A stretch of DNA of 34,304 bases. Source: an uncultured Oscillospiraceae bacterium. GTDB lineage: Bacteria > Bacillota > Clostridia > Oscillospirales > Ruminococcaceae. Under the pieces are notes generated by a model. It did not search any database and was not told the DNA's origin. It saw only the letters and a list, made by a program, of their open reading frames with translations. The stretch is from assembly GCA_949741215.1 (NCBI GenBank), contig CATJLA010000108.1:1-34304 (forward strand). Direction: 5' to 3'. Positions 5,832-22,625 of the stretch are shown piece after piece. The position numbers and the translations under genes are program-made. Each line of letters starts with the position of its first letter. Within the stretch, counting starts at the first letter, position 1.

Positions 5832-5870
5832 AAGACCTATGTTCTTATTCTCCATAAGAACATAGGTCTT
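5832..5870 (-). terminator. Leader terminator (expression platform) upstream of oadB
   Basis: A perfect 16-bp stem, AAGACCTATGTTCTTA (5832-5847 in plus-strand reading) with its complement at 5855-5870 and a 7-nt loop, is followed on the minus strand by TTTTATTATT. The first arm transcribed (5870 downward) begins AAGACCTATG. The same bases form the closing helix of the aptamer-like fold at 5861-5977, so the two structures exclude each other. Confidence 0.85.
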
Positions 5871-5977
5871 GTCATTTCAAGCTAAACCAGTTTCCCTGCC
5901 GAAACAGGCATTCCGGCAAAAAACAGTGCTGTTGACTTAGCTCCAGAGAACATCTCTGCTGACTACTCCCCTAAGGC
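5861..5977 (-). promoter_or_regulatory. Candidate riboswitch, yybP-ykoY (Mn2+) type architecture
   Basis: The leader RNA reads CCUUAGG, GGAGUA, GUC at its 5' side and GAC, AAGA, CCUAUG at its 3' side. The outer and inner helices therefore pair across an internal loop of GGAGUA against AAGA. This matches the hallmark of yybP-ykoY manganese riboswitches, where GGGGAGUAG faces AAGACC. A hairpin (CAGAGA-UGU-UCUCUG) follows the first motif. A second arm carries GUCAACA opposite ACUGG, resembling the other conserved loop. Ligand binding would hold AAGACCUAUG in the aptamer and block the terminator, giving an ON switch. Known targets are metal transporters, so a sodium-pump gene is unusual. The Na+ (DUF1646) riboswitch class is an alternative that I cannot check from memory. 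Confidence 0.65.
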
Positions 5978-5996
5978 AAAATCCTCTTTATACCAT

Positions 5997-6024
5997 ATTA
6001 TAACAAGAAAGCCGGGAATGTCAA
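5997..6024 (-). promoter_or_regulatory. Promoter of the oadB leader
   Basis: A perfect TTGACA (6019-6024), 16 nt, then a perfect TATAAT (5997-6002) on the minus strand. RNA would start near 5990, about 15 nt before the aptamer-like fold, giving a leader of roughly 205 nt. Confidence 0.85.
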
Positions 6025-6283: not shown

Positions 6284-6955
<672 letters not shown>

Positions 6956-22552: not shown

Positions 22553-22625
22553 TGGAGCATAGGGGGATCGAACCCCTGACCTCCACACTGCCAGTGTGGC
22601 GCGCTCCCAGCTGCGCTAATGCCCC
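22553..22625 (-). tRNA. tRNA-Ala (anticodon GGC)
   Basis: 73 nt fold as a complete cloverleaf. The acceptor stem GGGGCAU/AUGCUCC contains the G3-U70 pair that marks tRNA-Ala, with discriminator A. The D arm is GCGCAGCUGGGAGCGC, the anticodon stem CCACA/UGUGG has loop CUGGCAG, and the T arm is AGGGGUUCGAUCCCCU. The anticodon GGC lies at 22590-22592. The 3' CCA is not encoded. Its own promoter and terminator flank it, so it is a single-gene unit. Confidence 0.97.

Follow-up and report, generated by a model that had tools for sequence, protein, structure and literature searches.

A putative P4-less Mn2+ riboswitch upstream of a stand-alone oadB gene in an uncultured Oscillospiraceae bacterium

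In an uncultured Oscillospiraceae bacterium, a gene for the beta subunit of a Na+-translocating decarboxylase, oadB, is preceded by a leader which very probably represents a P4-less riboswitch of the Mn2+ (yybP-ykoY) class, acting as an ON switch by antitermination and controlling an orphan OadB. Here, we infer Mn2+ as the ligand as well as the direction of control, since the established members of the class behave in this way. If this holds true, the targets of Mn2+ riboswitches, which are otherwise met before metal exporters, would be extended to a subunit of a decarboxylase sodium pump. The element was identified in a stretch of 34,304 nucleotides, which is called the window throughout the text.

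Anatomy of the leader upstream of oadB

The promoter, the leader, the terminator and oadB are all located on the minus strand, at the place given by a preliminary description of this DNA; coordinates are written 5' to 3' along this strand. The perfect promoter claimed there is indeed present, since the sigma-70-type promoter TTGACA-16-TATAAT (6024-5997) matches the consensus at 12 of 12 positions, with a spacer of 16 nt between TTGACA and TATAAT and a TG preceding the -10 box (extended -10). A divergent serine recombinase (Resolvase domain, PF00239) at 6296-6955 on the plus strand adjoins the promoter.

Within the leader, GGGGAGUAG lies opposite AAGACC, and the latter strand is the opening of the terminator. 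Here, GGAGUA (5969-5964) faces AAGA (5870-5867) between the helices P1.1 (UAGG, 5973-5970, paired with CCUA, 5866-5863) and P1.2 (GUC, 5963-5961, paired with GAC, 5873-5871), which is the L1 arrangement of the Mn2+ class and bears out the earlier observation of a leader strand facing AAGACCU across a helix. P1.1, the switch helix, covaries in 31 other oadB leaders, in P1.2 a CG to UA exchange is seen in relatives, and GGAGUA is identical in them. A pattern search of the own genome with a gap of 60-90 nt gave no match, the actual gap being 92 nt. Between the two L1 strands lies the P2 hairpin (5958-5944), which is present in the minimum-energy fold and whose helix covaries in relatives, as well as P3. 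The lower helix of P3 is formed by GAGCUAAGUCA (5943-5933) and UGGUUUAGCUU (5889-5879) and is backed by covariation, and an upper P3 hairpin (5924-5890) is predicted by folding. Between them lies the L3 bulge ACAGCACU (5932-5925), in which A5930 in third place occupies the position of the Mn2+-sensing adenosine, as judged by decomposition of the leader and comparison with the solved aptamers (PMC6754395). As a whole, the aptamer spans 5976-5859, and the folding energy of the whole leader lies 4.6 standard deviations below that of dinucleotide shuffles (z -4.6).

The intrinsic terminator (5870-5832; 17 pairs, 5-nt loop, -23.7 kcal/mol) starts exactly at the AAGACC strand, so that the 3' strands of L1 (AAGA) and P1.1 (CCUA) at 5870-5863 are also the start of its 5' arm. 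The preliminary description was right about this shared strand, the helix being one pair longer than the 16 bp given there. The same overlap is found in most relatives, the 5' arm of the terminator beginning at most one or two bases away from the L1 3' strand in the majority of 40 oadB leaders. Since the arm begins at this strand, P1.1 and the terminator exclude each other. Downstream, a Shine-Dalgarno sequence AGGAGG (5796-5791) precedes oadB (5783-4653).

The residues of the core are highly conserved among the relatives. GGAGUA is combined with (A/G)AGA in all 29 oadB leaders where P1 could be placed, and it is present in all 136 such exporter leaders; the named oadB leaders contain GGAGUA in 31 of 31 cases, with AAGA, GAGA or CAGA opposite, although this constancy of L1 weighs less than the covariance results because the loci were partly chosen by the GGAGUA motif. 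L3 usually comprises seven nucleotides with an A in third place, namely UCANNNN in most oadB leaders and ACAUACU in mntP leaders. In the window L3 has 8 nt, one more than usual, a length that also occurs in some exchanger and ATPase leaders. The decomposition script demanded an A in third place, so that its constancy there is no independent test; in an unconstrained alignment of the leaders, which does provide such a test, the column of this A is invariant. The solved aptamers display the L3 heptamers UCA41AUUC (L. lactis) and ACA48UACU (X. oryzae), in which A41 and A48 coordinate Mn2+ via N7 (PMC6754395).

It could be argued that the leader is a variant of the class with a different ion as its ligand, such as Na+, Ca2+ or a divalent metal other than Mn2+, a specificity that would fit the gene of a sodium pump. 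Beyond the fact that oadB is no classical target, a group difference beside the core points in this direction, since the surroundings of L3 are mostly GCG[UCA....]C/CGC in oadB leaders and UCA[ACAUACU]UGG in mntP leaders. However, this difference concerns the closing pairs and leaves the contacting residues untouched, and an L3 of the UCA.... type is also present in the Mn2+ aptamer of L. lactis (PMC6754395). Furthermore, the mntP type of L3 is the one used in the window's own subclade, and models trained on either exporter or oadB leaders find the other group. A switch to another ion is therefore considered improbable.

The layout of the junction is less typical. P4 is a peripheral helix of the four-helix aptamer and makes no contact with the ligand. 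In the crystallised Mn2+ aptamers it is present (PMC9190785), whereas in the window its place is taken by a short A-rich linker, GAAAU(G) (GAAAU, 5878-5874), resulting in a three-way junction. Because P4 is absent, the element was filed as a P4-less variant. The linker between P3 and P1 measures 5-11 nt in 28 of 31 and in 22 of 23 leaders and typically reads GAAAUG, and in this bacterial family most leaders of mntP, ATPase and exchanger genes have no P4 either. In the oadB leaders of [Clostridium] symbiosum and C. transplantifaecale (L302:1070-1172 and L304:981-1083), the P2 hairpin is apparently gone and the stretch past P3 is longer.

Covariance models and the reach of Rfam

A first covariance model, R1, was trained on ten exporter-associated leaders only (mntP, P-type ATPase and Na+/Ca2+ exchanger). 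Since a MAFFT alignment of the raw leaders misaligned P2 and P3, the apical loops were trimmed by hand before R1 was built. Searched against 148 kb at E<=10, R1 returned ten matches, which are exactly the ten oadB leaders and no others, the window scoring 22.6 bits; across the whole own genome the window was the only match (E 0.05). Adding the oadB leaders to R1 gave R2, with which matches were obtained in 98 of the 148 genomes of the family and in 222 of the 394 genomes of the order. A third model, R3, was built from 31 other oadB leaders with the window excluded from training. In the own 2.33-Mb genome, R3 scored the window at 55.4 bits (E 9.3e-11) with no further significant match, and it recovered all 12 exporter leaders tested, each at E<=2.4e-8.

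The preliminary description had asked for covariation in related oadB leaders, and this was clearly found: 19 of the 23 pairs vary in both partners across the 31 leaders and 93% of the paired cells are standard pairs, in an alignment which was fitted to the model and thus somewhat favours the structure. None of 500 shuffles reached any of the covariation measures, and slid controls gave 28-42%.

On the contrary, Rfam is silent on the leader. At the gathering cut-off, no riboswitch was found in the window, and the sole family above it was a tRNA at 22553-22625. The Mn2+ model RF00080 (yybP-ykoY; gathering cut-off 45 bits) gave no match in the window even at E<=10, and neither did a Na+, DUF1646 or any other ion-riboswitch model among 4227 Rfam families. 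The longest sub-threshold match of the window (E<=10) is SSRC10 (RF02617), which several oadB leaders match over its full length; a reading of the window element as an sRNA was considered and set aside. Sub-threshold matches to microRNA and plastid families are a mere echo of the terminator hairpin. Two weak RF00080 matches elsewhere in the own genome lack the leader layout and were taken as chance.

The scan for RF00080 and DUF1646/Na+ models, suggested earlier as a check, thus came back empty, which we put down to the poor coverage of RF00080 and not to absence of the element. Over the 148 family genomes, RF00080 gave weak matches in 16, none above 45 bits and the best leader at 35 bits. The clear ones among them are located before genes for MntP, GDT1, P-type ATPases and Na+/Ca2+ exchangers and resemble textbook Mn2+ aptamers. 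No family genome passed the RF00080 cut-off, in comparison to the 98 of 148 found by our own model R2, and many mntP leaders were missed. Likewise, Rfam at its gathering cut-off found no element at 20 oadB loci of the GTDB set. Since no mntP leader of the family reaches the RF00080 cut-off either, a silent Rfam scan is no evidence against membership here. Because the model misses the whole group, the annotation of Mn2+ regulons in gut Firmicutes is probably incomplete. At one further locus, a fluoride riboswitch (L013:2762-2851; 38.9 bits, above the cut-off) lies just downstream of an oadB with its own Mn2+-type leader.

These data also bear on two further readings. A Na+-I (DUF1646) riboswitch, the alternative considered in the preliminary description, has the attraction that such riboswitches occur upstream of oxaloacetate decarboxylase genes (PMC9337991). 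Nevertheless, the lack of any Na+/DUF1646 match at E<=10 and an anatomy comprising every recognisable element of the Mn2+ class make it very improbable. That the leader is a plain attenuator or 3' hairpin with a fortuitous resemblance to yybP-ykoY would fit the absence of hits at Rfam cut-offs, but is hardly credible given the leave-out match of R3, the strong covariation and the presence of the same element before metal exporters. The assignment to the yybP-ykoY (Mn2+) class proposed from the start is favoured by the cores of both loops (L1 and L3), the discriminator A, the overlap of P1.1 with the terminator, the covariation and the same aptamers before mntP, P-type ATPases, GDT1 and Na+/Ca2+ exchangers.

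Distribution of the element and the stand-alone OadB

Among oadB orthologues of at least 66% identity, the leader motif is present in 10 of 22, the window included. In the GTDB set the element was detected at 31 of 80 oadB loci; all 31 matches precede oadB in the same orientation, and the 307 kb searched contain no further one. Named carriers include [Clostridium] symbiosum ATCC 14940, Clostridium transplantifaecale, Marasmitruncus massiliensis, Pseudoflavonifractor capillosus and Bittarella massiliensis. This association is a conserved one in Oscillospiraceae and recurs in Lachnospiraceae and Christensenella-type gut clostridia. In the family, about 32 of 148 genomes have the switch before oadB. 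At least roughly half of the oadB orthologues examined have no such element, which is therefore not essential to oadB.

The genes downstream of the family matches encode MntP (40), P-type ATPases (37), OadB (24 plus 8 seen earlier) and Na+/Ca2+ exchangers (10), a classification which leaves out 20 of 218 matched regions, in which the script did not find the motif where it was expected. GDT1 is also preceded by the same type of aptamer in this family. OadB, already regarded as an unusual target in the preliminary description, is indeed non-classical, yet recurrent and conserved. A few family matches also precede Na+/phosphate cotransporters (Na_Pi_cotrans; L223, L257) and CitMHS-type ion transporters (L226, L259, L266), which add to the non-classical targets and again have a Na+ flavour. 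No switch target other than oadB was detected in 13 of 32 family genomes, although the strict filters may miss weak ones, and mntP is still encoded in almost all genomes with an oadB switch. The own genome's mntP (G000:C125:9684-10139, L368) has no Mn2+-riboswitch match, the window element being the only one detected there.

The target itself was described correctly as a sodium-pump decarboxylase gene. The 376 aa protein gives a full-length match to the OadB family (PF03977, E 1e-154; TIGR01109, E 4e-127) and has a solved homologue (6IVA, E 3e-97). Equivalents of D203, Y229, N373, G377, S382 and R389, which we take to be the essential residues on the basis of the K. pneumoniae enzyme, are present in the window OadB; those of D203 and Y229, mapped on 6IVA, are D143 and Y169 and are invariant. 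Throughout the stand-alone clade, the residues that bind Na+ and decarboxylate carboxybiotin are as invariant as in ordinary OadB.

Phylogenetically, the gene belongs to a clade apart from operon-encoded oadB (support 100/100), with ~50% identity to the operon paralogue. In the tree, elements are present on the deepest branch of this stand-alone clade, and within the window's subclade (100/100) four of eight members have the mntP-type L3. Repeated loss or replacement of the element in the clade is probable.

The window oadB is not encoded beside alpha and gamma subunits. No decarboxylase gene was recognised beside oadB in the window or in the neighbourhoods of 18 relatives, using a simple ORF calling that is unreliable at two loci rich in GC, L052 and L057. 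The own genome is 88% complete; the window oadB is the only OadB found there, and an operon with mmdA-like, biotin-carrier and oadA-like genes, which lacks a beta gene, lies on another contig. Most likely, the stand-alone OadB serves as the membrane beta subunit of a biotin-dependent carboxyltransferase whose genes lie apart from it, in this genome the operon just named.

On this point a different view of the protein has to be weighed, which leaves the reading of the aptamer unchanged but takes the stand-alone OadB to be an Mn2+ (or Mn2+/Na+) exporter or another membrane protein of Mn2+ stress and no longer a decarboxylase subunit. Metal exporters are most of the genes with this aptamer in the family, oadB stands without an adjoining alpha or gamma subunit in the neighbourhoods examined, and the 13 of 32 genomes in which it is the only detected switch target would also fit. 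However, the invariant Na+-site and catalytic residues, the own genome's carboxyltransferase operon with its missing beta gene and the retention of mntP in almost all these genomes speak against it, so that such a conversion appears rather unlikely. Since the residues are conserved and the operon lacks its beta gene, a functional beta subunit under Mn2+ induction is favoured over a repurposed exporter.

Proposed mechanism and comparison with known systems

For the leader, the following mechanism can be envisaged. At low Mn2+, the AAGACCUAUG strand would pair downstream and form the strong terminator, leaving oadB off. When Mn2+ rises, L1 (GGAGUA/AAGA) would dock on L3 around an ion held by N7 of A5930; this docking would stabilise the weak P1.1 (UAGG/CCUA) and remove the strand from the terminator, and RNA polymerase could then read into oadB. 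The calculated ligand-free energies of the window leader (terminated -58.9 versus antiterminated -46.5 kcal/mol) suggest that the default is off and that the ligand and co-transcriptional timing are needed for the ON state. In the ON switch of L. lactis, Mn2+ stabilises P1.1, and the same terminator overlap is present (PMC11087558). The ON direction predicted earlier agrees with this precedent, as P1.1 and the terminator overlap in the same way.

Physiologically, an excess of Mn2+ would lead to more Na+ extrusion through an OadB-containing pump. More speculatively, this might power or balance the Na+-coupled Mn2+/Ca2+ exchangers under the same switch. In the open-access literature, no direct experimental precedent for a link between Mn2+ and a Na+ pump was found, and no paper joining the yybP-ykoY or manganese riboswitch with decarboxylases or OadB, although a subscription paper may exist. 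We tentatively raise the possibility, which we hold to be somewhat doubtful, that the stand-alone OadB clade is an unrecognised part of Mn2+ homeostasis, either as an Mn2+-induced Na+ pump energising Mn2+ export or as an Mn2+ transporter itself. If true, there would be at least 13 genomes in which oadB is the only gene detected under an Mn2+ riboswitch. The conserved link between the switch and oadB in itself suggests a coupling of Mn2+ stress to the sodium-motive force in these anaerobes and, since cultured carriers exist, the hypothesis is directly testable.

In comparison to the known Mn2+ class (RF00080; L. lactis yoaB and X. oryzae), the window element shares L1 with GGAGUA/AAGA, an L3 with the Mn2+-sensing A, a weak P1.1 whose 3' strand is shared with the terminator and the upstream layout of an ON switch. 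It differs by the absence of P4, with an A-rich linker and a three-way junction instead, by its L3 of 8 nt, by falling under the detection of RF00080, and by preceding the gene of a Na+-pump beta subunit and not of a metal exporter.

SSRC10 (RF02617) resembles the window in its GGGAGuag, CGUC and GaGaC elements and as a terminated leader. In contrast, it has been described as an sRNA of S. pyogenes and adjoins a transporter gene in streptococci, being located upstream of the putative calcium transporter gene SPyM3_0440 (PMC3675131). The streptococcal SSRC10 is probably an attenuated transcript of an Mn2+ riboswitch before this gene. The Na+-I riboswitch (DUF1646 motif) is likewise an ion-responsive ON switch and sometimes located before oxaloacetate decarboxylase genes (PMC9337991), but it is a different RNA without a match here. 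Finally, compared to the beta subunits OadB, GcdB and MmdB (PF03977; 6IVA), the window OadB is full-length and has kept its catalytic and Na+-site residues, whereas it belongs to a separate, strongly supported clade and is encoded by a gene that stands alone.
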